Source of the DNA: an uncultured Pseudomonadota bacterium
GTDB taxonomy: Bacteria > Desulfobacterota > Syntrophorhabdia > Syntrophorhabdales > Syntrophorhabdaceae
Reading direction: 5' to 3'
Length of the DNA: 34,848 nucleotides
NCBI GenBank assembly: GCA_937862865.1
Contig: CALMFJ010000147.1
Coordinates: forward strand, 1 to 34,848
Shown here: positions 3,954-18,761 of the stretch, in pieces
Numbering within the stretch: the stretch's first letter is position 1
How the letters are laid out: the number at the start of each line of letters is the position of its first letter
The notes under the pieces: model-generated
What the model saw: only the letters and a program-made list of their open reading frames with translations
What the model was told of the DNA's origin: nothing
Database searches by the model: none
Program-made: the position numbers and the translations under genes

Positions 3954-4432
3954 CCCGGCACAGGCCTATCCTCACCGCGATCGCCATCGTGATCGGGCTG
4001 GCCTGCCTGATCATTATCGGGATGCCGTACGCTGTACATATAAAACCGAAACTTTCGGCCCAGGAACAGCAGCTCGCTCGGTATCAGTACGAAAAGGTCG
4101 AGATCAAAGAGCGCATGGAGCGCGTTGTCTCGGGCTTAAGGAACCCTATGACGGATTCTTTTTCGTCCCCCGGCAAAGCCGGACAGGGCGGGTATCCCGG
4201 CGAAAAACTGGCCGATCTTGCACCGCCTGCCGGAGGGGGCCAGGACCCGGCCGTCAGGCAGCAGCCGGGAGTTTCGTTCATTGTCATAAAGGACCGCAAC
4301 AGGATGGCGATCGTTAATGGAGAAGTGGTGAGGGAAGGCGACAGGACCGGCCACGGGAAAATTGTGCGCATCACGAAAGCGGGTGTGTTGATAAAAAATC
4401 AAGAGGGGCAGCAATGGGTATATATCGAATAG
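3950..4432 (+). CDS. PilP/MshK-like periplasmic linker protein
   Basis: 160 residues from the ATG at 3950, which overlaps the upstream stop as ATGA and has AGGGAGGG a few bases before it. A GTG at 3929 is in frame but lacks this signal. There is one membrane helix near residues 7-29, a middle part rich in proline, glycine and glutamine, and a compact C-terminal domain containing VNGEVVREGD and a final WVYIE. That domain resembles the beta-rich region of PilP/GspC/MshK that contacts the secretin. Here it probably connects the inner-membrane complex to the secretin, whose gene overlaps this one by 19 bases. Confidence 0.65.
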   Translation: MTRHRPILTAIAIVIGLACLIIIGMPYAVHIKPKLSAQEQQLARYQYEKVEIKERMERVVSGLRNPMTDSFSSPGKAGQGGYPGEKLADLAPPAGGGQDPAVRQQPGVSFIVIKDRNRMAIVNGEVVREGDRTGHGKIVRITKAGVLIKNQEGQQWVYIE

Positions 4433-6117
4433 ATAATGGGACCGTAAGGGCCGCGCTTCTTTGCATTGCGGCGATATTTTCATTGTGTTCCTGTTCGCCG
4501 ACGATCAAGGAACAGGTCGGGATCAAGAACGAGGTGCAGGTACCGGACAGGTTCAAGGAGAAAAAGGAGGATAAACCGGCGCCGGCGCCGCCTCCTGCAA
4601 CCCCCGATTTTGTTCCCGCCCGGGTGGAGACGTCGCCCCTCAAGACGAGGATAGTCGATATCATAGCCCGCAGGACCCCCTTAAGGGATGTTCTGCATGC
4701 GGTGGCGAACGCGACCAGCCTCAACCTCGTGATGGAAAAAGGTGTCGATCCCGAGACCGAAGTGAACATGACGCTCCGCAATGTGACCGCCGAGCAGGCC
4801 CTGAACACCGTCTTCGCCTCGGTCGATTACTTTTACCGGATCCAGGACAACCTGCTCGTCGTTTCTGCCGTAGCAACGAAGGTGTTCGAGCTCGGCCATC
4901 CCGCGATGACCCAGAAATACGAGGTCGATGTCGGCGGCGACATCCTTGGCGGTGCCATGAGAATTATACCGGGGGGCACGGGGAGTTCCGGCGGAGGCGG
5001 CGGAGGCGGCGGAGGCGGCGGCGCGCAGTCGACCCAGATCAAAGGGAACGTGAGCCAGAAGATCAAGAGCGACGACACCGCGTATAATTTTTGGGATGCG
5101 GTAGAGAAATCGCTGGCCGGCATTCTTGAGACCTCACCGGGCACCGCGGCAACGGCCGTGCCGGGCGCGAGCGCCCAGGGCACGCAGGCGCCGGTTTCCG
5201 CACCGGTAACGGCCCAGTCGCAGGGTTTTACGATCAACAGGCTGACAGGCACGGTCTTTGTCACGGCATCCAAAAGGAACCTGCAAAGGGTCGAGGCATA
5301 TATTGAATCGCTCAAGAAGGTCATGAAAAGGCAGGTCCTTATCGAGGCCAAGATCATCGAGGTCCGCCTTCTGGACAATTTCCAGTTCGGCATCAACTGG
5401 AGCGTTGTTGACCGCTACATTACGACAACCGCGGAAGGATTGACGAGGACGACGAGCAGCTGGACGTATACGACGACCAATTTCAACCCGATCGCAAGTA
5501 CAAGCCCCGTCTTCACGATCACGGGAAACCCGAGCTTCGGAGGGTTAAAGGCCGACCTGTCAATGGTGGTCAACGCCCTTCAGCAGCAGGGCGATCTCCG
5601 CACGCTGTCAAATCCGAAGCTGAACATTATGAACGGGCAGACGGCGATGCTGACCGTCGGCAGGAACCAGGCATATATGTCCAAGATCGAATCGACCACG
5701 GTGGCCGGATACGGGGGCAACACGGTCTCGTACACGACGGAGCAGAACAGCATCCTCTCGGGGATCATGATAGGCCTTCTTGCTTATATTAACGATAACG
5801 GCGAGATATCCCTGACTATCACGCCGATCACCTCCGACCTTATCGATTTTACGTCCGTTCAGATCGGAACGCCCAAGGTAGCGGACATTCAGCTTCCCAC
5901 GGTCGATATCAGGCAGCTCTCCACCACGGTCAAGATACGCAACGGCGATATCGTGGCCATAGGCGGCCTTATATCGAAGAAGGAATATGTCACCGACAAC
6001 CAGATACCGTTTATCGGCAATATACCGGTGCTGGGGTACCTTTTTAAGAGCCGGGACAAACAGCACGTGAACTCGGAGCTCGTGATCATTCTGCAGCCCG
6101 TTCTTGTGAATATGTAA
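4414..6117 (+). CDS. mshL: MshL/PilQ-type outer-membrane secretin lipoprotein
   Basis: 567 residues. The N-terminus has a lipoprotein signal with a Leu-Cys-Ser-Cys lipobox (lipidated Cys near residue 27). An STN/N0-like domain follows at about residues 85-150, starting PLRDVLHAVANATSLNLV. A glycine tract lies at about 188-204 and an alanine- and proline-rich linker comes next. The C-terminal secretin domain covers roughly residues 280-567 and ends with the signature VAIGGLISKKEY, IPFIGNIPVLGYLF and a final ELVIILQPVLV. It forms the gated pore through which the pilus leaves the outer membrane. AGAGGGG lies 6-7 bases before the ATG. The domain order matches MSHA-type secretins better than the longer AMIN-containing PilQ. 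Confidence 0.88.
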   Translation: MGIYRIDNGTVRAALLCIAAIFSLCSCSPTIKEQVGIKNEVQVPDRFKEKKEDKPAPAPPPATPDFVPARVETSPLKTRIVDIIARRTPLRDVLHAVANATSLNLVMEKGVDPETEVNMTLRNVTAEQALNTVFASVDYFYRIQDNLLVVSAVATKVFELGHPAMTQKYEVDVGGDILGGAMRIIPGGTGSSGGGGGGGGGGGAQSTQIKGNVSQKIKSDDTAYNFWDAVEKSLAGILETSPGTAATAVPGASAQGTQAPVSAPVTAQSQGFTINRLTGTVFVTASKRNLQRVEAYIESLKKVMKRQVLIEAKIIEVRLLDNFQFGINWSVVDRYITTTAEGLTRTTSSWTYTTTNFNPIASTSPVFTITGNPSFGGLKADLSMVVNALQQQGDLRTLSNPKLNIMNGQTAMLTVGRNQAYMSKIESTTVAGYGGNTVSYTTEQNSILSGIMIGLLAYINDNGEISLTITPITSDLIDFTSVQIGTPKVADIQLPTVDIRQLSTTVKIRNGDIVAIGGLISKKEYVTDNQIPFIGNIPVLGYLFKSRDKQHVNSELVIILQPVLVNM

Positions 6118-6130
6118 GGAGGTGGTCCAG

Positions 6131-7780
6131 GTGGCCGGTCCCGTCAAAATAGGCGATATCCTCAAGTCGAAAGGCATGGTTACCGACAAGCAGCTCGATA
6201 TCGCGTTCATCCAGCACAAGGTTACGGGCGATCTCATCGGGGATGTCCTCGTCAAGCTCGGTTTCGTTTCGGCCAAAGAAAGGGGGCAGATCCTTGCCGA
6301 ACAATCGGGCATTGAATTTATCGACCTCGACGAATATGCGATATCGGACGAGGCATTAAAGCTCGTAAGCAAGGACGTCTCCCTGAAGAACGAGTTCGTC
6401 CCCCTCGATGTCGGGGACGGCAAGGTGAGCATAGGGATAACCGAGCCGGGGAATATCATGGCGATCGATACGGTGGCCCGCCTGACGAAAAAGCAGGTGA
6501 AGACTTATATCGTCGACCGTGACACGTATTACGACACCATTGAAAAGGCCTATTATTTCCTGGAAAACCCGATCTACCAGCAGATGGAGAAGATCATCAG
6601 GAATGTGCTGTCGACCGGCGCACCGTCGGGCAACGAGCTTGTATCCATGACGGATATGATCATCATGGACGGCATACGCAAGAACGCCACCGACATCCAC
6701 ATAACACCGACCCCCGATGTCACGCAGGTCTTTTACCGTGTTGACGGTGTCCTCCAGTTCGGTCACTGCCTCCCGAGGGCCATACACATCGGTATCACCT
6801 CGAGGATAAAGATACTCGGGCACATCGATATCGCCGAGACGAGATTGCCGCAGGACGGGGCGTTCAGCTTCGACTTCCTGAACAAGTCATACGATCTCCG
6901 CGTCTCGACCATTCCCACGATCTACGGCGAGAACATCGTATTGAGGATACTCTCGGGCAAGGGGACCCTTCTGCGCATGGAATCCCTCGGCTTCGACGCG
7001 GCTGAAACGGCGCGCCTGCGCGGCCTGTTCCAAAAACCGTACGGTGTCATACTGGTGACGGGGCCCACGGGAAGCGGCAAGACAACGACCCTGTATTCCG
7101 CCCTGCGCGAGGTTAACCTTCTTGAACGGAATGTCCTGACTGTTGAAGACCCTGTCGAATACAAGCTGAGCTTTGTCAAACAGACGCAGGTCCTCGACCG
7201 GGCAGGCTACGATTTCGCGCTGGCGGGAAGGAATTTCATGAGGCAGGACCCCGACGTGATCCTCCTCGGCGAGATCCGCGACGAAGAAACGGCGAAGATC
7301 GCCATCAGGGCGTCTATCACGGGCCATCTCGTCATCACGACCCTGCATACGAATGACGCGGTCACGTCCATACCCCGCCTTGTCGACCTGAATGTCGACA
7401 AATATCTCCTTTCGTCGTCACTGCTTGCGATCGTCTCGCAGAGGCTCCTCCGGAAGGTCTGCAATTACTGCAAGACCGGGTATTCGTTCAACGACGAGGA
7501 GAAGGCGCTTTTCCGGGAGTTCGGCATACAGGCGGAAAGCGGGTATAAGAGCGCGGGGTGCGCGCGCTGCAACAACACCGGGTATATGGGGAGGACCGTC
7601 ATCGCCGAGATATTGCTGGTCGATGACGAGGTGAAAGAAATGATATACGAAGGCATCTCGGCCCCGACGATCAAGGAGAGGGCGATTACCAAGGGGATGA
7701 GGCCGTTCAAGCATCACGGCATGCTGAAAGCGGCCGAGGGCATAACGACCATCGAAGAAGTCCTGAGGGTCGCCGGGTAG
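6131..7780 (+). CDS. mshE: Pilus assembly ATPase, GspE/PilB/MshE family
   Basis: I place the start at GTG 6131 because AAGGAGG (6116-6122) sits 8 bases before it. The in-frame GTG at 6122 overlaps that ribosome site. The product is about 549 residues. An N-terminal T2SSE/MshEN-like domain (about residues 1-150) is followed by the ATPase core. Visible motifs are Walker A GPTGSGKTTT, the Asp-box region VEDPVEY, Walker B region DVILLGEIRDEETA and the His-box HLVITTLHTND. A four-cysteine zinc site (CNYC and CARC) lies in the C-terminal domain. It powers pilus extension. In MshE and relatives the N-terminal domain can bind c-di-GMP. That is a known family property which I have not verified here. 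Confidence 0.92.
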   Translation: MAGPVKIGDILKSKGMVTDKQLDIAFIQHKVTGDLIGDVLVKLGFVSAKERGQILAEQSGIEFIDLDEYAISDEALKLVSKDVSLKNEFVPLDVGDGKVSIGITEPGNIMAIDTVARLTKKQVKTYIVDRDTYYDTIEKAYYFLENPIYQQMEKIIRNVLSTGAPSGNELVSMTDMIIMDGIRKNATDIHITPTPDVTQVFYRVDGVLQFGHCLPRAIHIGITSRIKILGHIDIAETRLPQDGAFSFDFLNKSYDLRVSTIPTIYGENIVLRILSGKGTLLRMESLGFDAAETARLRGLFQKPYGVILVTGPTGSGKTTTLYSALREVNLLERNVLTVEDPVEYKLSFVKQTQVLDRAGYDFALAGRNFMRQDPDVILLGEIRDEETAKIAIRASITGHLVITTLHTNDAVTSIPRLVDLNVDKYLLSSSLLAIVSQRLLRKVCNYCKTGYSFNDEEKALFREFGIQAESGYKSAGCARCNNTGYMGRTVIAEILLVDDEVKEMIYEGISAPTIKERAITKGMRPFKHHGMLKAAEGITTIEEVLRVAG

Positions 7781-7800
7781 GCGGGAAAGGCCGGCACGCT

Positions 7801-9012
7801 ATGGGTGTGTTCGCGTACAAAGCGATAGATGACGCCGGGCTGTACAAGACCGGTTTTGTGGATGCGGTGGACCTGGATACGGCATACAACGATCCCGCAG
7901 TCCAGGGCCTGAGCGTCCTCTCCATGAAACAGGCCGGCAGGATATCCGGGCTGTCGCGCGGGTTCAGTTTTTTGAGGATCAAAAGAAGCGCCATCCTCGA
8001 GTTTGCCACCAATCTCTCCGTTATTCTGCGGGCCGGCATACCGATACTCGATGCGCTTGGCGACCTGAGCCAGACCATGGAGAACAGGTATCTCCACCAG
8101 ATCATCGATGACATCAGGGAAAAGATACAATCGGGCCTGAGTTTCTCGAGCGCCCTGTCCTTCCACAAGAAGGTCTTTCCGGATATCTTCATACGACTGG
8201 TAACGGTAGGCGAAGAGACGGGCAGGCTTGAACAGAGCATTACCGAGGTGGCGGAGCACCTCCAGAGGATGGATGACCTCTCGAGCATGGTGAAAAGGGC
8301 CCTCATGTACCCCGTCTTCGCCCTCGTGACAACGGGCGGTGCGCTCGCTTTCTGGGTTTTTTACGTTCTCCCCAAGATCCTGGTCGTCATGAAGGACATG
8401 AATGTCAAACTGCCTCTGATAACGAGGATCATACTCGGCGTCAGCGATTTTACGAAGGCATACTGGTATGTATTCGCCCTCGCTCCCGTCGCGATCTTTG
8501 TCGCGCTCTTCCTGATGAAGCGAAAGGAGCGGACGCGGTATTTCCTGGACCTGGTCAAATTGAAGGTACCCATTCTCAAGCTTTTTGTTATCAACAGGAT
8601 CTTCGCGGTCTTCTGCGAGCAGATGAGGATACTCATAATATCCGGCATCACGATAGACAGGTCGCTCGTGATTGCCGCCGGCGCCGTGGGGTCAGAGGTT
8701 TTCAAGAGGTCCCTCCTGCAGGCGCGGGACATCATCATGACGGGCAGCAGGATATCCGATTCGTTCAGGCGGGGCAAATTCTTCCATCCGCTTGTCGTCC
8801 GGATGGTCGATATCGGCGAGACGAGCGGTAATCTCGACGACCAGTTCAACTTTCTCGCGGCATTCTTCTACAAGAGGCTTGCGGACGTGACCGACAAACT
8901 GGGCAAGTTGATCGAACCGATACTGCTGGTGCTTGTGGGATGTGTTTTTGCGATCATTATTTTGGGGCTTCTGCTTCCTATCTATGATATTGTAACGAAG
9001 ATCGGAAAATAG
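7801..9012 (+). CDS. mshG: Inner-membrane platform protein, GspF/PilC/MshG family
   Basis: 403 residues, the usual length. The protein begins GVFAYKAIDD as is typical. It contains two repeated T2SSF domains. The first has NLSVILRAGIPILDAL and VGEETGRLEQSI, the second EQMRILIISGITIDRSL and VDIGETSGNLDD. Hydrophobic helices lie near residues 176-198, 222-242 and 372-398. It is the inner-membrane platform on which the ATPase acts during pilin polymerisation. It follows the ATPase gene after 20 bases, with GGGAAAGG as ribosome site. Confidence 0.92.
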   Translation: MGVFAYKAIDDAGLYKTGFVDAVDLDTAYNDPAVQGLSVLSMKQAGRISGLSRGFSFLRIKRSAILEFATNLSVILRAGIPILDALGDLSQTMENRYLHQIIDDIREKIQSGLSFSSALSFHKKVFPDIFIRLVTVGEETGRLEQSITEVAEHLQRMDDLSSMVKRALMYPVFALVTTGGALAFWVFYVLPKILVVMKDMNVKLPLITRIILGVSDFTKAYWYVFALAPVAIFVALFLMKRKERTRYFLDLVKLKVPILKLFVINRIFAVFCEQMRILIISGITIDRSLVIAAGAVGSEVFKRSLLQARDIIMTGSRISDSFRRGKFFHPLVVRMVDIGETSGNLDDQFNFLAAFFYKRLADVTDKLGKLIEPILLVLVGCVFAIIILGLLLPIYDIVTKIGK

Positions 9013-10326: not shown

Positions 10327-11478
10327 TTAATTTCCCAGCAGGACCAGCCGTTCGTTGGCGTATTGCCTGGTTTTGGGGTCGGCGGTGGTTGATGCGAGGA
10401 TGTCCCGGTAGACCTTTTTTGCCTCCTCGCGTTTTCCCTGCTTCTCGAGGACGCGGCCGAGACCGGTTGGTCCCTGCGGACTGCCCGTTCCCGCCAGCTT
10501 CTCATAGATCTCGGACGCCTCGGGGTATCTGTTCCTGTTCTCATAGAGCAGGCCGAGGTTGTAAAGGACCTGCCTGTTGCCGGGCTCGAGGGACCGGGCC
10601 CGCAGAAGGCCCTGCTCGCCTTCGGAGATATCGCCGAGACGTATGGACGCGATGGCAAGGTTGATGATCGCAGGCACGTAATTCCGGTTCGTGTTAAGGG
10701 CCAGGCGGGAATACTGGACAGACTCGGCGTATGCCCCGGTTTTGATAAGGGCCCCGGCAAGCCCCGTCATGACGATATAGTTCTTCCCGTCGAGTGCCAG
10801 CGCCTTCCTGTAGCCCTGAATGGCCTGCGTGAGGTTGCCGCTCTCCTCGTAATTACGGGCGGAGTAGATCGCTGCGTCGCGGTCGGCCTTGCGGCGGTCT
10901 GAAGGCGAGATCCTCTCCTGCTTCTCATAGCGTGCGGGCTCGACGGGCCTTTGCTTCGTTGTTTCGGTCCCGCCCTTTTCCTGCGCGGGCCTTCCGGTGG
11001 TTTTCAGGTCGGCGACAGGCTCTTCGATCGTTGCGGGCCTCGCCGTTTTCTGCACGTCGCGGGCCCCGGCCTGAAAGCCCTGTGCCGGCGGCTCTATGGT
11101 CTTCTTCGGCTCGTCCGCCGGGGCGGCGGGCTGTGCCGGTTGCGGGGTTTCGGCCCGCGGCTCAATATTGGGTGCGGGGCCCTGGGAAGACGGAACGGGG
11201 CCGTCCTTTGCCGGCTGTCCCATCGGCAGTGTCCCCCGCGGGCCCGATGCCGCCTTCAGCCTTACGGAGGGTTTGAGAAAGGTGTTCATGTAATAGACCG
11301 CGCCAAAACCAATACAGACAATACAAAGAACAGCGACGCCGATGATCATGAAGCGGCCCCGTTTTTTCTTTCTTGCGGATGCCCGCGTTATGATCGATTC
11401 GAGGTGGGGCGGTACGACCGTATTTTTTTCGCCCGGTTCGTTCTTTGCTTTGGAAAGGAGGTCGGCGAGGAGGCTCAT
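10327..11478 (-). CDS. Membrane-anchored TPR protein, MshN-like
   Basis: 383 residues. A cytoplasmic N-terminus with a basic RKKKRGR patch is followed by one membrane helix at about residues 41-65. A long low-complexity proline- and alanine-rich linker runs to about residue 190. At least four tetratricopeptide repeats then run to the end, for example the segments around AIQGYRKALALDGKNY and AEQSVQYSRLALNTNR-type helices. Single-pass TPR proteins of this plan (MshN) occur in MSHA loci and are thought to help place the secretin or other assembly parts. It lies convergent to the ATPase gene with only 22 bases between them. Its start codon overlaps the stop of the transglycosylase gene as ATGA. 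Confidence 0.7.
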   Translation of the reverse strand: MSLLADLLSKAKNEPGEKNTVVPPHLESIITRASARKKKRGRFMIIGVAVLCIVCIGFGAVYYMNTFLKPSVRLKAASGPRGTLPMGQPAKDGPVPSSQGPAPNIEPRAETPQPAQPAAPADEPKKTIEPPAQGFQAGARDVQKTARPATIEEPVADLKTTGRPAQEKGGTETTKQRPVEPARYEKQERISPSDRRKADRDAAIYSARNYEESGNLTQAIQGYRKALALDGKNYIVMTGLAGALIKTGAYAESVQYSRLALNTNRNYVPAIINLAIASIRLGDISEGEQGLLRARSLEPGNRQVLYNLGLLYENRNRYPEASEIYEKLAGTGSPQGPTGLGRVLEKQGKREEAKKVYRDILASTTADPKTRQYANERLVLLGN

Positions 11479-12032
11479 GGAGGCCCGTCCCGTTCGCCCG
11501 CTGCGTCCCGGACGTGAAACACGAACGATGACCGGCCCCCCGCCGCTTTCTTCACGGCGACGCTTTTCCTGGTTTCCCGGCCGGCGCCCGGGCCTGCGGT
11601 ATTCGAGGCGTCTGTCACCCCTTTCAACTTGTGGAAAACCTTCCAGGCATAGGTCACACGTTTTTCACGGCTGTAGGCGTTATAGCACCCGACCGCCTCC
11701 CACGTATATCCGTGGCGGTCTATGCATTGCCGCAGGACAAAGGCCCCTGTCATGGTGTTGAGGCAGGCATTGTTCATGAGATCGTCATACGTCACGTTGA
11801 TCGTTCTAAGCCATGCTGAATTGATCTGCATAAGCCCTATGTCCGTCGAGCCGTTCGGGTTTTTGTTGACCGCCCGGGGGTTGAGGCCCGATTCGACCTG
11901 AGCGATGCTCTTCAACAGCCTGGGGCTGATGTTATAACGCTCCCCGGCCTCTTGAAAGCAGAACGCGCGGACATGGACCGGAAAACAGGAAAAGATCAGG
12001 AGTATTATACCCACTAATGCAAAAAAATACAT
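11475..12032 (-). CDS. IagB/VirB1-like lytic transglycosylase
   Basis: I chose the ATG at 12032, giving 185 residues with a clean signal peptide (hydrophobic segment, cleavage near HVRA|F). A TTG at 12071 would extend it by 13 residues but lies at the presumed -35 element. The mature protein begins CFQEAGERYNISPRLLKSIAQVESG and continues DIGLMQINS, ACLNTMTGAFVLRQC and AVGCYNAYS, the conserved blocks of the SLT/IagB family. The catalytic glutamate is Glu47. Such enzymes open local gaps in peptidoglycan for trans-envelope machines. Overlap with the TPR gene and location inside the pilus locus point to that role. The last 50 residues are basic and low in complexity. Confidence 0.85.
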   Translation of the reverse strand: MYFFALVGIILLIFSCFPVHVRAFCFQEAGERYNISPRLLKSIAQVESGLNPRAVNKNPNGSTDIGLMQINSAWLRTINVTYDDLMNNACLNTMTGAFVLRQCIDRHGYTWEAVGCYNAYSREKRVTYAWKVFHKLKGVTDASNTAGPGAGRETRKSVAVKKAAGGRSSFVFHVRDAAGERDGPP

Positions 12033-12042
12033 GTATGACTGG

Positions 12043-12071
12043 ATTATAAGAAAAAAGACCTTTAAAAACAA
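12043..12071 (-). promoter_or_regulatory. sigma70-type promoter of the transglycosylase-TPR operon
   Basis: On the minus strand TTGTTT (12071-12066), 17 bases and a perfect TATAAT (12048-12043). Transcription would begin near 12036, only about 3-5 bases before the ATG at 12032, and no Shine-Dalgarno is visible between. The mRNA would be nearly leaderless. Confidence 0.5.
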
Positions 12072-12103: not shown

Positions 12104-12712
12104 ATGGAAACCATCCTCCTCACAGAAGACGACGCCGCTCTCAGGGGCCAGATACGCTTTGCCCTGGAAGAGCGCTTCGAGGTGCGTGAAGCGGAAAACG
12201 TCCTGAAGGCGGTCCATGTTCTCAACTCGGAGAACATAACGCTGGCGGTACTGGACCTGGGACTGCCCCCCCACGAGGACACCCCCGAGGAGGGCTTAAG
12301 GCTCCTCCACTATATTCTCGAGAATTTCGGGATCAAGGTCATCATTCTCACCGGCCAGAAGACGGAGACGGCCGCCCTCGAATCCATAAAGTCAGGCGCC
12401 TTCGATTATCTCGTGAAGCCCGTTTCCATGGAGCAGCTCATGTTCTCGATCGACCGGGCCATCCTTTTCCGGGATACGGAACAGGAGCTGTCGAAACAGG
12501 GCACGGCGAAGGTGAGCTTCGGCATCGAGGTGGGCAAGGGCCTGCAGCCCGCCCGGGAAGAGGCGGAGAAGAACGTGATCCTCACCGTGCTCAAGAACAC
12601 GAACTTCAATGTCTATAAATCCGCAAAGCTTCTCGGCGTGAAGAGGGAAAGCCTCTATTATTTCATCAAGAAGTTCGGCTTCAAAAGAGAGGACATCGAT
12701 GCTGACTCTTAA
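12104..12712 (+). CDS. Response regulator with Fis-type DNA-binding domain, no AAA+ domain
   Basis: 202 residues. Residues 1-125 form a receiver domain: acidic pocket EDD at 8-10, phosphate-accepting Asp51 in LAVLDLGLPP, the Thr of IILTG and the Lys of LVKP. Residues about 155-200 form a Fis-like helix-turn-helix (EKNVILTVLKNTNFNVYKSAKLLGVKRESLYYFIKKFGF). NtrC-type regulators carry this helix-turn-helix behind a sigma54-activating AAA+ domain, which is absent here. The protein resembles the RegA/PrrA/ActR layout, which works with sigma70. It is cotranscribed with the kinase behind it and lies just before the pilin genes, so it probably controls them. AAGG at 12094-12097 precedes the ATG by 6 bases. 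Confidence 0.85.
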   Translation: METILLTEDDAALRGQIRFALEERFEVREAENVLKAVHVLNSENITLAVLDLGLPPHEDTPEEGLRLLHYILENFGIKVIILTGQKTETAALESIKSGAFDYLVKPVSMEQLMFSIDRAILFRDTEQELSKQGTAKVSFGIEVGKGLQPAREEAEKNVILTVLKNTNFNVYKSAKLLGVKRESLYYFIKKFGFKREDIDADS

Positions 12713-13802
12713 GTTCGTCCAGTCGATGTACCTTTTTGTCCTGGTGGCCGGTGCCGTTGCACTGGTCATTCTTTTTTATTTAAGGTACCTGACGAACCGT
12801 GCTTTCAAGGTCCAGCTGCGCATGGTCGATGCCAACCAGGAATGCAACTACGATATCGCCCTTTTTCTGCCGAAGGCCAGTGAGCTTGTCAAAACGGCGG
12901 AGATCGAGGAGATATTCTACGACATACACTATAGCGAAAGCACTGTTGCCAGGCCCGCCCCCGGGACCAGGCATACGATCGTCCGGACGATCACCCGGCC
13001 GGATTATTCCATAAGCCTCGGCATCGTCACGTCAAGCCCGCGGGGCTACCAGAGATATATCTACATGATCATCTTCGAGACCCTTTTTCTTCTCATTGAA
13101 ATGGACATCCTGATGAAGATAAAGGTGGCAAACGAGGCGTTGTGCAATTTTTCAAAGCTCCACACCTTTCTCCTCCATGATGTAAAAAATGTAACCCAGT
13201 TCATTAAAGGGCTTATTTACAATATCGACCGCATAAAGGGGCCCGAGAGGGAACACCGGTTCATCGAGTATTTGAGGGGGTCGGCCCCGGCGCTCAGCGT
13301 GAGGACGGACAAGATACTCTCCACGCTCGAGATCGGTATGGAGAAAGACGAGGAAGAGACCGCCGAGGAGGTCGACATCGCGCGCCTTATAAAGGACCTC
13401 TTTGCCCTGTACCACATAAAGGGCGAAGCGGCGGGCGAGGGGGCCCTGCCTACCCAGAGGCATAAGATGGTCACGGTTTTTGACAACATCATCAAGAACG
13501 TCCGGGAAAAATCGGCCAGAGAGCCGGGGATCGAGTGCTTTTCCTCTGTACGCGAGGAGACCGGATCGCTTGTCGTTGTCATCTATGATACGGGCAGCCC
13601 GGTAAAGAACATTGAGAGGATGTTCGAGCCTTTTTACACGACGAAAGAATCGGGGCTCGGCATCGGCCTTTTCCAGGCGCGCCATATCGTGAAGAACCTG
13701 GGCGGAGATATGGCGGTCGAGAACACCGGCAGGGGCGTTGAGTTCACCGTGAAACTGCCGAAAAGCGCGAAGACGGAGCATATCGACGCAGCCGGCGAAT
13801 GA
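12699..13802 (+). CDS. Membrane-anchored histidine kinase, PrsK-like
   Basis: 367 residues, overlapping the regulator gene by 14 bases, with AGAGAGG 6 bases before the ATG. One membrane helix lies at about residues 8-28. Residues 40-145 are an unassigned possible sensor region with a second hydrophobic stretch near 118-140. The H-box is HDVKN with presumed phospho-His160, the variant found in PrsK-type kinases and not the usual HExxN. The ATPase part retains an N-box-like FDNIIKNV, a G1-like YDTGSPVKN (shortened), an F-box MFEPFYTTK and the G2 region GLGIGLFQARHIV. It should phosphorylate the overlapping response regulator. The signal sensed is unknown. Possible inputs are surface contact or envelope state. 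Confidence 0.82.
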   Translation: MLTLKFVQSMYLFVLVAGAVALVILFYLRYLTNRAFKVQLRMVDANQECNYDIALFLPKASELVKTAEIEEIFYDIHYSESTVARPAPGTRHTIVRTITRPDYSISLGIVTSSPRGYQRYIYMIIFETLFLLIEMDILMKIKVANEALCNFSKLHTFLLHDVKNVTQFIKGLIYNIDRIKGPEREHRFIEYLRGSAPALSVRTDKILSTLEIGMEKDEEETAEEVDIARLIKDLFALYHIKGEAAGEGALPTQRHKMVTVFDNIIKNVREKSAREPGIECFSSVREETGSLVVVIYDTGSPVKNIERMFEPFYTTKESGLGIGLFQARHIVKNLGGDMAVENTGRGVEFTVKLPKSAKTEHIDAAGE

Positions 13803-13807
13803 GCGTG

Positions 13808-13857
13808 TCCGTAAATTCATTCTACATCTTGTATGATCGGCCGATCACTGATATAGT
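13808..13857 (+). promoter_or_regulatory. Promoter of the pilin-like operon with upstream activator box
   Basis: The -35 TTGTAT (13829-13834), 17 bases and -10 TATAGT (13852-13857) start transcription near 13864. Immediately upstream, and running into the -35, lies the box TC(C/T) GTAAATTCATTCTACAT (C/A) TTG at 13808-13831. The same box, with two changes in 24 bases, sits at exactly the same position relative to the promoter of the last pilin gene (17497-17520). A poor -35 with a conserved box beside it is the usual form of an activator-dependent promoter. Confidence 0.65.
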
Positions 13858-13860
13858 GAT
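13834..13860 (+). promoter_or_regulatory. Two overlapping palindromes over the pilin promoter
   Basis: TGATCGGCCGATCA (13834-13847) is a perfect 14-base palindrome in the spacer between -35 and -10. ATCACT-N5-AGTGAT (13844-13860) is a second inverted repeat that overlaps the first and covers the -10 element. Neither is present at the other pilin promoter. Both could bind a repressor. No binder is identified. Confidence 0.45.
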
Positions 13861-13914
13861 GTGCAGGTAAGGGAATACGGCGTGTAGACTGTACTCTCGA
13901 GAGGGCGTTGAGAA

Positions 13915-14511
13915 ATGCGGTTACATCTTTCAGGCCCGGGGGCCGGGAACAACGAGCACGGTTTTACCATGGTCGAGATCGCCATTGTCATGGTCGTCAT
14001 CGGTCTGCTTATCGGCGTTGTCCTCAAAGGGCAGGCCCTCATCCAGAATGCCCGGTATAAGTCCCTCATCAACCAGGCAAACGAACTCACCAATGCATAC
14101 TTCGCGTATCTCAACCAGTACGGGAAATACCCCGGGGACGACAACACCGCAGTCGGCAGATGGGGGGCCACGACGGCGGACGGCAACAACAACGGAAGGA
14201 TCGACAATGCCGAACCCCTGCGCGCCAACCAGCACCTGGCCCTGGCGTCGCTGATCGCCGGCACGTACAACGGGACGACCCAGACAATTCTCCTGAAATA
14301 CGGGAACGCGACCACGGCCACCTTCACGCAGGCCCCTGCCGCCATGCAGGCGCTGTGCGCGAATGTGATAAACTTTGCAGGTTTGGATGGCGAAGCGGCC
14401 CAGGCGCTCGATTCCGCGCTCGACGACGGGGTGTACAGTACGGGCAAGGTGCGGGGCGATGTCGCCTATACCGCGGGCACGGTCATTGCCAACACGAATT
14501 TGTGCCTGTAA
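13915..14511 (+). CDS. Type IV pilin (MshA-like), first of the set
   Basis: 198 residues. The leader of 16 residues ends in Gly, and the mature protein begins FTMVEIAIVMVVIG: the prepilin cleavage site, Glu at mature position 5 and the hydrophobic N-terminal helix are all present. Behind it comes VLKGQALIQNARYKSLINQ and a globular part with YGKYPGDD. The end LDDGVYSTGKVRGDVAYTAGT matches the last pilin gene of the locus (LDTMYDDGVATTGS and AAYTAGS), so the two are paralogs. It needs a prepilin peptidase, which is not in the window. GAGGG lies 9 bases before the ATG. The stop overlaps the next start as TAATG. Confidence 0.85.
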   Translation: MRLHLSGPGAGNNEHGFTMVEIAIVMVVIGLLIGVVLKGQALIQNARYKSLINQANELTNAYFAYLNQYGKYPGDDNTAVGRWGATTADGNNNGRIDNAEPLRANQHLALASLIAGTYNGTTQTILLKYGNATTATFTQAPAAMQALCANVINFAGLDGEAAQALDSALDDGVYSTGKVRGDVAYTAGTVIANTNLCL

Positions 14512-15602
14512 TGCAGGCGTACGATAAAAGAAAAAGGGATTCCGGGAAAATGAGAGCCGGCAGGCCGCAACTAGCTTCCGATCACGGTTTTACCATCGTC
14601 GAGATGGCAATTGTCATGGTCATCGTCGGCATACTCGTGGTACTCGGCGTCAGCATGATAGGCCCGTTGGCAAGGACGGCGAAGGTCAACGAGACGCAGG
14701 GAACGATCGACGCAGACCTCGAGTCGCTCATCGGGTTTGCCGCCACCAATAAAAGGCTCCCGACAAGTGCAAATTTCGCCGCGGCGGTGAAAAAGGCAAA
14801 CGATGGGTGGGGGAACGCCCTGTACTATATCGTCGATTCCACTCTCGCCCCTGCGGCCCCTTACACATCCCCCGATTACATCTGCACGAGGAGAAGCACC
14901 GGGCTCACCGTCAGGAATTGCCTGACCAACAATTGTACGACGACGGCGGGCACGGATTACGTGGACATACCGAACGTTGCATTCGTGATTATAAGCGGCG
15001 GGGAGAATTTCAACGTTCAGACCGCGGCTGTAACCGGCCGGGTGACCGTTTATGTCCGCCACGGGGTGACAACCCGTGACGATTGCACGGCCGCCGCCAC
15101 CTGTCCGAACTATCCTGCCGCCGGCACCATGATCAACCTGTCCGAACGCTATGATGACATCGTGAGGTGGGTCACCCTCGATGAGTTAAGGATAAAGACG
15201 GGGTGCCAGGGCGGGCAATTGAAGATCCTGAACAACGAACTGCCCAGCGGCACGACCGCGGCGTACGGCGCGGACATCTATGCATCCGACGGCATCCCGT
15301 TTACGACAGGCCCCAACACATACCGGTGGTGTGTTAACACGCTGCCCACAACAGGCCTTCAGGCATCGACCGGGTTGACCGCCGCCGACTGCATGACGAC
15401 GACATCCTGGTCCTCGGCCACGCCGGGCGACAGGCTGACGATCTCGAAGTCAGCGCTGGCATTGACCGCGAATTCATATCAGGTCACGGTTGTCGCACGG
15501 GACAATGCAGGGGGGTATGCCGCCGGGTGGCCGGCATGCAATGACCCTTTGAACAAGGACAACTGCAGCCGCAGATCGTTTGTCATCACAATAAGCCCCT
15601 GA
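14511..15602 (+). CDS. Large pilin-like protein with class III leader
   Basis: 363 residues from ATG 14511; an in-frame ATG at 14550 behind AGGG is a good alternative. A leader of about 26 residues ends SDHG, and the mature protein begins FTIVEMAIVMVIVG with Glu at position 5. The helix is followed by a soluble domain containing IGFAATNKRLPTS, DGWGNALYYI, DDIVRWVTLDEL and LKILNNELP. These blocks recur in the next gene. About 110 further residues follow, with several cysteines, ending in a beta-rich, Ig-like segment. Probably a minor pilin at the tip or in initiation, like MshO/MshB-type proteins. Function inferred. Confidence 0.78.
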   Translation: MQAYDKRKRDSGKMRAGRPQLASDHGFTIVEMAIVMVIVGILVVLGVSMIGPLARTAKVNETQGTIDADLESLIGFAATNKRLPTSANFAAAVKKANDGWGNALYYIVDSTLAPAAPYTSPDYICTRRSTGLTVRNCLTNNCTTTAGTDYVDIPNVAFVIISGGENFNVQTAAVTGRVTVYVRHGVTTRDDCTAAATCPNYPAAGTMINLSERYDDIVRWVTLDELRIKTGCQGGQLKILNNELPSGTTAAYGADIYASDGIPFTTGPNTYRWCVNTLPTTGLQASTGLTAADCMTTTSWSSATPGDRLTISKSALALTANSYQVTVVARDNAGGYAAGWPACNDPLNKDNCSRRSFVITISP

Positions 15603-15639
15603 TGATAAGAGGATAAAGAAATTGGGGACCGGGAATCTC

Positions 15640-17418
15640 ATGAAGAGCATCAGAGGCCTCGCGCTGGTGTATATTGTCATGACGATCCTTTTCCTTGTCG
15701 TTATCCTTGCAGCGGCGGCATTCATGGCCGGACCGCTTTCAAAACGCGTGAAAGCCGTCGAGACCGGGAAGACCTTAGATGCTGCGATCAGTGCGGTTAT
15801 CGGGTTCGCGGCGACAAAGGGCCGTTTGCCGACCACCGCCGAGTTTGTCAGCGCTGTACGCAAGGCCGATGATGCATGGGGAAACGCCCTGGTGTTTATC
15901 CCCGATGCCAGCATGACCACGGTCCCTGTGGGTTCGACCGAGGCGATATGCAGGTTGAAGACGACCGGCATCACGATCACCACTGCGGGGGCCCCGGTCC
16001 CCAACGTTGCGTTCCTGATCCTCAGCCGCGGGCCTAATCTCAATAATCAGACGGGCGCTGTCGCTGCAGCCGCGATCAGCGTGCCCGACGGCGATACCGT
16101 TATAGACAGTTATGCCGGAAACGGCGTCTACGATATACCCGGCCCGGCCCGGCCGGAGGTATTCGACGACATCGTCAGATGGGTGACGCTCGATGACCTG
16201 AAAAGCAGGCTTGGCTGTTCCGGGCCGACGCAGGGGCGGCTGAAGATACTCAACAACGAGCTTCCCTCCGTATGCTCCGGACAGGCGTACAACGCCACGT
16301 TGTATAGCGACGGGGGCGTCCTGCCCTGCCTTCCCTGGAGTTACACCGCTTTGCCCGCGGGACTGACGATGGCCCCTGCGACCGGCGTCATCTCGGGGTC
16401 GGTGTCGGCCCCGGGCGTATACCCGGTCACGTTTACACGAACGGACAGCGGGGGAAACACGGTACAAAAGATCCTTAATCTGAATGTTAGGGCCTGTCCC
16501 TCGTGGATGGGGGGGTTTGACAGCGCCTCAAGCCCGGGAGGGACGCTCTCGGGCGGGGCCGCCATCGGGGGGTCGGGGGCCGCAGGCACCGCGAGCGCGC
16601 TGGCCTTGATCGGGGTTTCTCCCTCCTTCATCCCCACAGACCAGGGCGGTGCCGGCTATCCAAAATTCAGTTTCGAACAGAACCAGGCCTTTTCGATCAC
16701 GGCATGGGTCAAACTGACGCAATTCCCCACGAGTCCGCCGGCGTCATTTATCTACCCGTTTGTCTCCAAGCCCGGCACCGGCGCGCAGATGAGCGGATAT
16801 TACCTGGAACTTCACAGTTCGGCCTTCAATCCCCCCAACACGTCGGGAAGGCATCGTATTGCGTTCAGGCTGATCGGGGATGCGGGGGGAAGCCGGACAA
16901 TTACGGTGTATAATACGACAAATATCACTACCCTGAACGCGTGGTACCACGTGGCGGCTTCATACAGCGGGTCGGGCCTGGCGTCCGGTGTCCGCATCTA
17001 CGTGAATGGCGCATCGGGTAAAACCGCATACCAGGATACGCTTGGCGCTCGAAGTATCATCAACACGAACCCTCTGACGGTAGGGTATTACAGTGCGCCG
17101 GCGGCATGGAATTCCGTTTATAACAGCATCTATATCGATGAGGTCCACATGTACGGTGCTGAGGTGAGGCGCCTCGGGGCGGCAAGGGTGGGGGGAGGCA
17201 TCGTGATGAGCCCGTCCATCACGGGCACGTCGGAAAGGATCAACTGCGGCACGGTGTGCGAGGCGTTCTATCCGAAAGGGGCGCAGGTGACCCTTTCGGC
17301 ATATCCCAGCCCGGGAAGCTCGTTCACCGGATGGTCGGGGGGCGGCTGCTCGGGAACGGGGGCATGCACGGTCACCCTTGGGGATGATATCAACGTGACG
17401 GCAACGTTCACGCCATGA
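15640..17418 (+). CDS. Pilin-like adhesin with Ig-like, LamG and B-repeat domains
   Basis: 592 residues from ATG 15640; TTG 15622, 9 bases after AAGAGG, is an alternative. The leader MKSIRG and a long hydrophobic helix look like a prepilin, but the fifth mature residue is Tyr and not Glu. Residues 30-230 repeat the domain of the upstream gene (IGFAATKGRLPTT, AWGNALVFI, DDIVRWVTLDDL, LKILNNELP). Next come a putative Ig-like domain (ALPAGLTMAPATGVISG), a LamG/concanavalin-like domain at roughly residues 280-510 (FSITAWVKL, WYHVAASYSG, GVRIYVNG, YIDEVHMYG) and a C-terminal B-repeat-like segment (GSSFTGWSGGGCSGTGACTVTL). The plan recalls MshQ-type surface adhesins. It probably binds a glycan or surface at the pilus tip. 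Confidence 0.75.
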   Translation: MKSIRGLALVYIVMTILFLVVILAAAAFMAGPLSKRVKAVETGKTLDAAISAVIGFAATKGRLPTTAEFVSAVRKADDAWGNALVFIPDASMTTVPVGSTEAICRLKTTGITITTAGAPVPNVAFLILSRGPNLNNQTGAVAAAAISVPDGDTVIDSYAGNGVYDIPGPARPEVFDDIVRWVTLDDLKSRLGCSGPTQGRLKILNNELPSVCSGQAYNATLYSDGGVLPCLPWSYTALPAGLTMAPATGVISGSVSAPGVYPVTFTRTDSGGNTVQKILNLNVRACPSWMGGFDSASSPGGTLSGGAAIGGSGAAGTASALALIGVSPSFIPTDQGGAGYPKFSFEQNQAFSITAWVKLTQFPTSPPASFIYPFVSKPGTGAQMSGYYLELHSSAFNPPNTSGRHRIAFRLIGDAGGSRTITVYNTTNITTLNAWYHVAASYSGSGLASGVRIYVNGASGKTAYQDTLGARSIINTNPLTVGYYSAPAAWNSVYNSIYIDEVHMYGAEVRRLGAARVGGGIVMSPSITGTSERINCGTVCEAFYPKGAQVTLSAYPSPGSSFTGWSGGGCSGTGACTVTLGDDINVTATFTP

Positions 17419-17496
17419 TGAGGCTCTCAGGCCGTCACAAGGCGGAACATGCCGCTGCCGGGCCGCCTGGATTTTTCATAGCGTAAAACAGTGTTA

Positions 17497-17546
17497 TCTG
17501 TAAATTCATTCTACATATTGCAAAGCCTTTTAATTTCCGTTATATT
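17497..17546 (+). promoter_or_regulatory. Promoter of the last pilin gene with the same activator box
   Basis: The -35 TTGCAA (17518-17523), 17 bases and -10 TATATT (17541-17546) start transcription near 17553. The box with core GTAAATTCATTCTACAT (17500-17516) lies upstream and ends in the TTG of the -35, exactly as at 13808-13831. This places the main pilin gene under its own promoter but the same control as the upstream pilin operon. Confidence 0.68.
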
Positions 17547-17578
17547 ACAGACAGAACTTAAGAAAGGGAGGAATGGTT

Positions 17579-18220
17579 ATGTTGAAATCAATCAGGAATA
17601 CAAAAGGTTTCACTCTCATTGAGATGGCAATCGTCCTCGTCATTATCGGCATCATCCTCGGAGCGGTCCTGAAAGGGCAGGAACTGATCAACAGCGCCAA
17701 ATCGAAACGGATATATACCGATGTCCAGGGCGTGGCGGCGGGCATATACACCTATATGGACAAGTATGGCACGAGATTGCCCGGCGACGACCCGAACGCC
17801 ACAGCAGCCATACGCGGCACCGGATGGGCGACCGGGACGGGCGGCACCCTGGGTAACGGCCTTATCGAGGGCGGAGCCACGGGGAGTGATGCCACCCCCG
17901 GAAGCATGTTCACGTGTGCGGCTGCAACAACCACCGAAACATGCCGCCTGTGGGACCATATGAAGCGGTCAAATATTCTCACCGGTGCGTTAAACTCGAC
18001 AAATCCGCCCAATTCCTACGGCGGCACCATCGGCGTTGCCAACGTGGCAGTCCAGGGCCTTACCGTCAACTGGATAGGCGTCTCCAATGTCCCGTCGAAT
18101 ATAGCCCAGAGCCTCGATACAATGTATGATGACGGTGTCGCGACGACCGGTTCCATCCGTGCCCTCGCCGCCTATACGGCAGGATCTGAAGCCCCGATAC
18201 TGGTTTTCTTCCGGTTCTGA
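17579..18220 (+). CDS. Type IV pilin, probable major subunit (MshA-like)
   Basis: 213 residues from ATG 17579, which lies 7 bases after AAAGGGAGG. The ATG at 17573 is in frame but only one base from that site. The leader MLKSIRNTKG is followed by FTLIEMAIVLVIIG, a canonical prepilin site with Glu at position 5. VLKGQELINSAKSKRIYTDVQG continues the helix. Then come YGTRLPGDD and a glycine-, threonine- and alanine-rich globular part with a Cys pair. It has its own strong promoter, the best ribosome site of the pilin genes and a stable hairpin after its stop. These suit the most abundant subunit, although I infer this from signals and not from data. Confidence 0.85.
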   Translation: MLKSIRNTKGFTLIEMAIVLVIIGIILGAVLKGQELINSAKSKRIYTDVQGVAAGIYTYMDKYGTRLPGDDPNATAAIRGTGWATGTGGTLGNGLIEGGATGSDATPGSMFTCAAATTTETCRLWDHMKRSNILTGALNSTNPPNSYGGTIGVANVAVQGLTVNWIGVSNVPSNIAQSLDTMYDDGVATTGSIRALAAYTAGSEAPILVFFRF

Positions 18221-18230
18221 GAGAAAGAAG

Positions 18231-18262
18231 GGTGAGATGGAGGTGAAACCCTCCATCTCACC
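18231..18262 (+). terminator. Strong hairpin after the main pilin gene, no T tract
   Basis: GGTGAGATGGAGG (18231-18243) and CCTCCATCTCACC (18250-18262) pair perfectly over 13 bases around a 6-base loop. No run of T follows, so it may protect the 3' end of the pilin mRNA as much as end transcription. It also lies just before the next gene. Confidence 0.5.
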
Positions 18263-18278
18263 ATTACAAAAGCCTGCC

Positions 18279-18761
18279 ATGATGCTCATCTACTTCGCTC
18301 ATCCCTGCTTCAACGAATCCCAGGAATTGTTCAAGAAAGAGTTTCTGCGTAAGCTCCGGGCGGCGCTTGACGGGACGGGGCACGGAAAAGCGATCACTAT
18401 CGTGGACCCCTTCGTCGACACGCCGAATATCGAAGGGAACAGGGAGACGAAGCTCAAGCTCAGCCGCCTTGTCAAGGACACGTGCATCAAGATGCTCGAA
18501 GAGTGCGACACGGTCGTCGCCATGGTGGACGACGGCGACACCGGGGTCGCTTTTGAGACGGGTTATGCGGCGGCGGCGGGCATACCGGTCGTTCTCATAT
18601 CGCGGTCTGATTGCGCCGCGGCCAATGCGATGCTGGTCGGGGCGGCCAAAGAGCGGGTCAATGCCCTCCTGACCGATGCACAGGTGACAAAGCTTGCTCG
18701 TATGCTAGAATGGTATTATATTTCCCGCAAAGGGCACGGTCATGGGTCCAGGAAAAGCTAA
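18279..18761 (+). CDS. Nucleoside 2-deoxyribosyltransferase-like protein
   Basis: 160 residues from ATG 18279; a second ATG follows directly at 18282. Starts further upstream would read through the pilin hairpin. The N-terminus MMLIYFAHPCFN and the block CDTVVAMVDDGDTGVAFETGYAAAAGIPVVLIS match the nucleoside 2-deoxyribosyltransferase fold, whose members exchange bases on or hydrolyse deoxynucleosides or nucleotides. The Asp and Glu of the DTGVAFETGYA segment correspond to the family catalytic region. Substrate unknown. It overlaps the zinc-ribbon gene by 20 bases. Confidence 0.65.
   Translation: MMLIYFAHPCFNESQELFKKEFLRKLRAALDGTGHGKAITIVDPFVDTPNIEGNRETKLKLSRLVKDTCIKMLEECDTVVAMVDDGDTGVAFETGYAAAAGIPVVLISRSDCAAANAMLVGAAKERVNALLTDAQVTKLARMLEWYYISRKGHGHGSRKS

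Follow-up and report, generated by a model that had tools for sequence, protein, structure and literature searches.

Known two-component systems and the window locus

The described two-component system closest to the one reported here is PrsK/PrsR, the XrtA/PEP-CTERM two-component system (Haft et al. 2006, PMC1569441). That paper gives, as the probable PrsR site, a 17-nucleotide motif that ends in TTTACA, is sometimes repeated, and lies about 63 nucleotides upstream of a -24/-12 promoter (PMC1569441). Our analysis concerns a 34,848-nucleotide stretch of DNA (the window), which is the entire contig CALMFJ010000147.1 (C147) of a Syntrophorhabdaceae genome (2.64 Mb, 96.5% complete, 172 contigs). 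The window contains a short box at two pilin promoters and, just upstream, the genes for a response regulator of 202 residues (12104 to 12712, forward strand) and for a membrane histidine kinase (12699 to 13802, forward strand), whose start overlaps the regulator stop. From comparison across genomes, we consider it highly probable that the adjacent regulator uses the box as its operator and would act there as an activator.

In both phyla in which the pair was found (see below), the best curated match of the regulator is the PrsR family TIGR02915 (112-124 bits) and that of the kinase the PrsK family TIGR02916 (78-84 bits); the kinase and regulator genes stand in tandem and the targets are surface proteins. 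The PrsR motif and the box are both 17 nucleotides long and sometimes repeated, the motif ending in TTTACA and the box in (T/C)TACA. The scores nevertheless fall far below the cut-offs, and membership in PrsR/PrsK is rejected because the locus lacks both an AAA+ domain and a sigma54 promoter. The window regulator reaches 111.8 bits on TIGR02915 (best stretch residues 4-129; cut-off 502.6), whereas four PrsR proteins from relatives reach 613-654 bits, and the window kinase reaches 84.1 bits on TIGR02916 (profile positions 472-679 of 679; cut-off 300), its PrsK-like part being the carboxy-terminal half. The regulator has no central AAA+ sigma54-interaction domain, the kinase has no PrsK-type amino-terminal half, the targets are pilus genes, and the 17-base-pair dyad of the box abuts a sigma70-type -35 element instead of lying about 63 nucleotides upstream of -24/-12 elements. 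A search of seven relatives with the pattern TTTACA-N45..75-TGG gave scattered matches with no clear common upstream half.

Other known systems resemble the locus in part. RegA/PrrA/ActR regulators likewise combine a receiver with a Fis-type helix-turn-helix domain without AAA+, but differ in genomic context; on the corresponding model NF033791 (cut-off 250) the window regulator scores 49.6 bits (residues 2-115) and a gammaproteobacterial orthologue 62.7 bits. The RegA operator also differs from the box. PilS/PilR is a two-component pair that lies near pilin genes and controls pilin transcription. PilR, however, is a sigma54 enhancer-binding protein with an AAA+ domain, whereas the present regulator has none and the promoters are of sigma70 type. 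The cluster itself resembles mannose-sensitive haemagglutinin (MSHA) loci, with MshL and an MshE-type cyclic di-GMP (c-di-GMP)-binding motif over their cut-offs (TIGR02519, 256.2 against 250.2; NF053729, 47.7 against 38) and pilins in the same cluster, and differs from them in the dedicated receiver-Fis/kinase pair that it contains. A limited search of open-licence papers, which is weak evidence, found no description of the regulator, the box, the regulon or such a pair in MSHA loci.

A preliminary description of this DNA had identified the neighbours of the box as a histidine kinase and a receiver-Fis regulator unable to activate sigma54, and domain searches agree. A Pfam scan of the regulator gave nothing over cut-off beyond PF00072 and PF02954 (HTH_8), and no AAA+ domain. 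Its residues E8/D9/D10, D51, T83 and K105 are invariant among 11 orthologues, a recognition-helix region KRES(L/I)YYF(I/M)KKF is common to most orthologues in both phyla, and the structure model shows two folded parts (mean predicted local distance difference test score, pLDDT, 82.8). The kinase carries HATPase_c and an H-box, HDVKN, in which H160, D161 and N164 are invariant among eight homologues; no HisKA match was found in Pfam. Its structure model is moderate (pLDDT 73.9) and shows an amino-terminal membrane helix followed by a small alpha/beta domain, for which no library match names an input domain. Foldseek searches with both models returned generic kinases, receivers and NtrC-type proteins. 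With a phosphoacceptor aspartate and acidic pocket on one side and an H-box and ATP-binding domain on the other, the two proteins have the residues of a functional pair, for which phosphotransfer and DNA binding are predicted.

The box at two pilin promoters

The box was first described as a 24-base element at 13808-13831 (TCCGTAAATTCATTCTACATCTTG) and 17497-17520 (TCTGTAAATTCATTCTACATATTG), and this stands: the two copies differ at two positions, both in the flanks, and the core is identical. The exact 17-mer GTAAATTCATTCTACAT is present twice in the window (13811-13827 and 17500-17516). With up to three mismatches allowed, the same two matches compare with 0.06 expected after dinucleotide shuffling, and none of 100 shuffles reached two. 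A search of the whole 2.64 Mb gave no further site at up to two mismatches and two further sites at exactly three, the same number as the reversed-pattern control.

As also described earlier, the box runs into the -35 element at both promoters, with 17-base spacers. Promoter 1 has the -35 element TTGTAT (13829-13834) and the -10 element TATAGT (13852-13857), the position of the latter being kept in relatives; promoter 2 has TTGCAA (17518-17523) and TATATT (17541-17546), all on the forward strand. A promoter scan recovered promoter 2 and missed promoter 1, whose -35 is poor. Inspection found no -24/-12 pattern at either site, and a sigma54 promoter was rejected on that ground.

The two copies could in principle be a functionless leftover from duplication of a pilin gene with its promoter. 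The pilins are paralogues, and the gene order in genus g8, where a gene like that of pilin D comes first, suggests a rearrangement in this genome. The surroundings of the two copies have diverged, however, while the box has stayed nearly identical, and in other genomes the same box stands before unrelated gene families. We reject a duplication remnant on these grounds and regard it as very unlikely.

Anatomy of the proposed operator

We compared the box with sites from relatives, whose sites are mutually non-independent. These sites were collected with a search pattern that allowed one mismatch and included neither the -10 nor the upstream element. The comparison corrects the picture of a simple box: the core is an imperfect dyad, TGTA-N9-TACA, of 17 base pairs adjoining the -35, and most sites carry an apparent, weaker copy upstream. 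In the dyad numbered 0-16 (TGTAWATTNATTYTACA), G1, T2, A3, T13, A14, C15 and A16 are conserved throughout 42 distinct sites. This is partly by construction, since the search pattern largely fixed these positions, and the dyad and the -10 are better guides. The sites pair on average at 5.8 of 8 dyad positions, against 2.6 when shuffled. The dyad is followed by T-C/A-TTG, which brings the box right up to the -35. All 39 distinct sites with enough downstream DNA show a -10 that matches in four or more of six positions at a spacing of 16-18 (best spacing 17 in 28 of them), whereas in the shuffle control 10.6 sites pass, with a maximum of 21.

Immediately upstream of the core, most sites carry GTAAAAYYGNNTTATC, which appears to be a second, weaker copy of the core 17 base pairs away. 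In the window, operator 1 (core dyad CGTAAATTCATTCTACA, 13810-13826) is without this copy, and operator 2 has it: the upstream copy GTAAAACAGTGTTATC (17483-17498) fits the family-wide consensus and precedes the core dyad TGTAAATTCATTCTACA (17499-17515), all on the forward strand. This difference is consistent with the scores of an operator model trained on sites from this genome and its relatives, in which site 2 (17483-17523, E=2.6e-10) ranks above site 1 (E=2.7e-7). All three sites that the model finds in this genome (see below) are in its training set.

The same anatomy bears on whether the motif might be an extended -35 recognition element of an alternative sigma factor. It does abut the -35, and block and -10 are conserved in the same orientation. 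The -10 (TATATT), however, is that of an ordinary sigma70 promoter, the core is dyad-symmetric, an upstream repeat is unexpected for a sigma element, and the presence of the motif tracks that of the response regulator. An alternative sigma factor is rejected for these reasons, and we consider it very unlikely.

Co-occurrence of the box and the regulator

Within the family, regulator orthologues occur in 16 of 39 genomes, the others being 63-86% identical to the window regulator. In orthologous loci with enough downstream DNA (genus g1 and nearest relatives) the box sits downstream of the kinase gene, ahead of the following gene, which usually encodes a pilin. Sites at E<1e-3 under the operator model are present in 18 genomes, 16 of which encode the regulator, and the regulator was found in none of the 21 genomes that lack sites. 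Fisher's test gives p=4e-9, a figure that is no true probability, as it comes from related genomes and is not phylogeny-corrected. One of the two exceptions, G036, has the carboxy terminus of the kinase just upstream of a box at a contig edge, which explains this exception. Absences also run in parallel: in genus g8, most members have both box and regulator and G032 has neither, and in g4, G014 lacks the regulator and has only a marginal model match (E=0.009).

When named genomes were scanned with an alignment of the regulator, more distant relatives came to light, including some in another phylum (Gammaproteobacteria at 44-49% identity). At three of these loci (L110, L111 and L113) the order is regulator, kinase, box TGTAAAAAAAACCTACATATTG, pilin, and G065, G066 and G068 have no strong site other than the one at the regulator-kinase locus. 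We then used a box pattern, which contained nothing about the regulator, on 245 gammaproteobacterial genomes of the order of G065 and obtained eight matches. Three of the eight carry TGTAAAAAAAACCTACAT (G065, G676 and G593), and all three lie between kinase and pilin; the remaining five differ in the core and sit at unrelated genes. A search for the regulator in an equally large sample of that order gave exactly four carriers: these three and G656, whose box, AGTAAAAAAAACCTACATCTTG, is in place. It has a changed first base and two mismatches to the pattern, which is why the pattern search missed it. Thus the box holds the kinase-pilin position in 4/4 regulator carriers, and 3/3 strong pattern matches are in carriers.

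Some gammaproteobacterial carriers have, next to the pilin gene behind the box, a gene for a large protein with a similar start in different genomes (L111:2435-3694 and L209), which we took, by eye only, for a membrane signalling protein.

Reach of the predicted regulon

The genome-wide search for the box and the genes behind it that the preliminary description had called for finds, with the operator model, three sites and no more: besides the two window sites there is one at C139:692-725 (minus strand). This third site has the promoter TTGACT-16-TAGAAT and precedes a spore-coat-U gene (PF05229, chaperone-usher-type). The genome has three type IV pilin clusters; the box is at the MSHA-like one, and the operator model gives no site at the other two (C121 and C43). 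The claim that the regulator switches on all pilins is therefore too broad, since these two clusters lack the box, and also too narrow, since the box also stands at a spore-coat-U gene here and at Tad and chaperone-usher genes in relatives. The regulon read from these sites is small in this genome: two predicted target promoters belong to the MSHA-like pilin cluster, and the only other target is a spore-coat-U gene.

In the family as a whole, we assigned 43 sites at E<=0.005 by our own count. Type IV pilin or pilin-like genes follow 17 of them, spore-coat-U genes seven, Tad genes three (a Flp operon, TadE/TadG and a lone Flp), and sensory genes six (HisKA, PAS-LuxR, GAF); two precede a nucleoside deoxyribosyltransferase gene, four other genes, and at four the contig ends too soon to tell. 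Two of the seven spore-coat-U genes are followed by genes for a PapD-like chaperone and an usher (domain calls were run for one). Because the box stands before type IV, Tad, chaperone-usher and some sensory genes, the system in the relatives looks like a coordinator of surface appendages. This suggests that unrelated pilus types, which are usually studied separately, can share one switch, and an uncharacterised receiver-Fis family gains a concrete proposed operator, together with a regulon small enough to test. The operator model is a ready means of listing that regulon in further genomes.

Several variations on this arrangement occur among the relatives. In G009 (contig C95, locus L067) the regulator, kinase and box are kept and the box leads straight into the deoxyribosyltransferase gene, with no pilins; three boxes in G009 stand at Tad genes (L069), and the switch may have changed pilus type there. 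At L077 (6342-7454) and L084 (5279-6391), both on the minus strand, a gene for a 370-residue protein lies between the spore-coat-U and chaperone genes, the L077 copy having a weak DUF4388 match. At L078, L080 and L081 in genus g8, a receiver-domain gene is succeeded by one for a short HisKA-type protein that has a box to itself, possibly as a feedback or network branch. Also in g8, several contigs (L082, L083, L076 and L079) end within about 125 bases downstream of a box, which suggests that repeated or variable genes behind it break the assembly.

Proposed activation by the adjacent regulator

Comparison gives good support to the proposal, already made in the preliminary description, of a regulator that binds the box and turns on the promoters: the place of the box, its recurrence with the regulator in two phyla and its class-II-type geometry, with a constant -10 spacing, all agree with it, while binding and activation themselves are predictions. 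We regard binding, and the full model with activation, as likely. In the mechanism that we envisage, the kinase would phosphorylate D51 of the regulator, and the phosphorylated regulator would dimerise. One dimer would occupy the dyad, centred around -45 and directly upstream of the weak -35, and a second would bind the abutting upstream copy where this is present. The bound regulator would then recruit sigma70 RNA polymerase in a class-II-like manner.

Several points weigh against this proposal. The box sites in relatives are not independent, so that the two-phylum result bears most weight, and this comes from few gammaproteobacterial genomes. Moreover, the gammaproteobacterial pattern was drawn up after the boxes at L110-L113 had been seen; the motif was thus not blind, although its locations elsewhere were. 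G004 (92% complete) has four model matches and no regulator was found in it; unlike G036, it has no contig-edge explanation. With the patterns used, no clear box was seen at the divergent regulators L107 (65% identity, same architecture), L112 (a Polaromonas metagenome-assembled genome), L201 and L202, loci L109 and L203 being left out of this judgement. The pairing thus appears strongest for the g1/g8/g4 group and the close gammaproteobacterial group, and the operator may have changed in more divergent lineages. Some sites in relatives also stand at genes without an obvious pilus role (GAF, PAS-LuxR, HEAT/glycosyltransferase), though the wide spread over unrelated genes that would count against the original proposal was not seen. 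Finally, the preference for activation over repression derives from position and the weak -35 only.

Alternatively, the box could be the operator of a different DNA-binding protein that also controls pilus genes, the two-component pair being linked by position only. The DNA specificity of the regulator is a prediction, G004 has boxes with no regulator detected, and several targets are themselves sensory genes, which is compatible with a wider network. Against this stand the joint occurrence of box and regulator in two phyla, the position of the box next to the pair at those loci that could be read, and the confinement of the strong site to the pair's locus in G065, G066 and G068; the dyad, moreover, suits a dimeric Fis-type helix-turn-helix protein. 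We therefore consider a different protein unlikely. A similarly low probability attaches to the regulator binding the box but repressing, or acting both ways. A dimer bound next to the -35 could block polymerase, and the direction of the effect is read from sequence alone; the box, however, overlaps neither the -35 nor the -10, and a weak -35 with constant spacing is the usual setting of activation.

The length and the end of the two operators, which are the features compared, are suggestive of a shared origin of the PrsR operator and the present one. A regulator of the PrsR lineage may have shed the sigma54 domain while retaining a dyad operator of unchanged length, shifted that operator beside sigma70 -35 elements and come to coordinate as many as three unrelated kinds of pilus machinery (type IV/MSHA, Tad and chaperone-usher), with pair and operator kept together across at least two phyla; we give this history an even chance. 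The locus also lends itself to the question of how a relative of sigma54 activators may come to act at sigma70 promoters.

The pilin cluster and neighbouring genes

Promoter 1 is followed by genes for type IV pilin A (198 residues, 13915 to 14511) and the type IV pilin-like protein B (350 residues, 14550 to 15602), both with PF07963 over cut-off, and for the large pilin-like or adhesin protein C (592 residues, 15640 to 17418). Protein C contains LamG, putative Ig-like and InlB B-repeat-type domains and has no N_methyl match; perhaps it serves as an adhesive minor pilin whose leader is non-standard. Behind promoter 2 lies the gene for type IV pilin D (215 residues, 17573 to 18220; PF07963 over cut-off). 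Pilin D is possibly the major pilin, and its amino terminus is similar to that of the pilin which, in genus g8, comes first after the box. Its gene is followed by a nucleoside 2-deoxyribosyltransferase-like gene (18279 to 18761, start codon inferred; PF05014 in an open reading frame from 18126) that is likely read from promoter 2; a gene of this kind stands directly behind the box in G009 and G004. All five genes are on the forward strand. Between pilin D and the deoxyribosyltransferase-like gene is a 16-base inverted repeat (18228-18265) with no T run on the forward strand, which may govern how much pilin transcript is made relative to that of the gene downstream.

The MSHA-like pilus machinery is encoded upstream of the regulator (4414 to 9012, forward strand) and comprises the MshL secretin, an MshE/PilB-like ATPase with a c-di-GMP-binding motif and a GspF-like platform protein (T2SSE, MshEN and T2SSF domains). 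Between this machinery and the regulator, two genes on the minus strand encode a lytic transglycosylase (SLT, 11478-12071) and a TPR protein (10330-11478).

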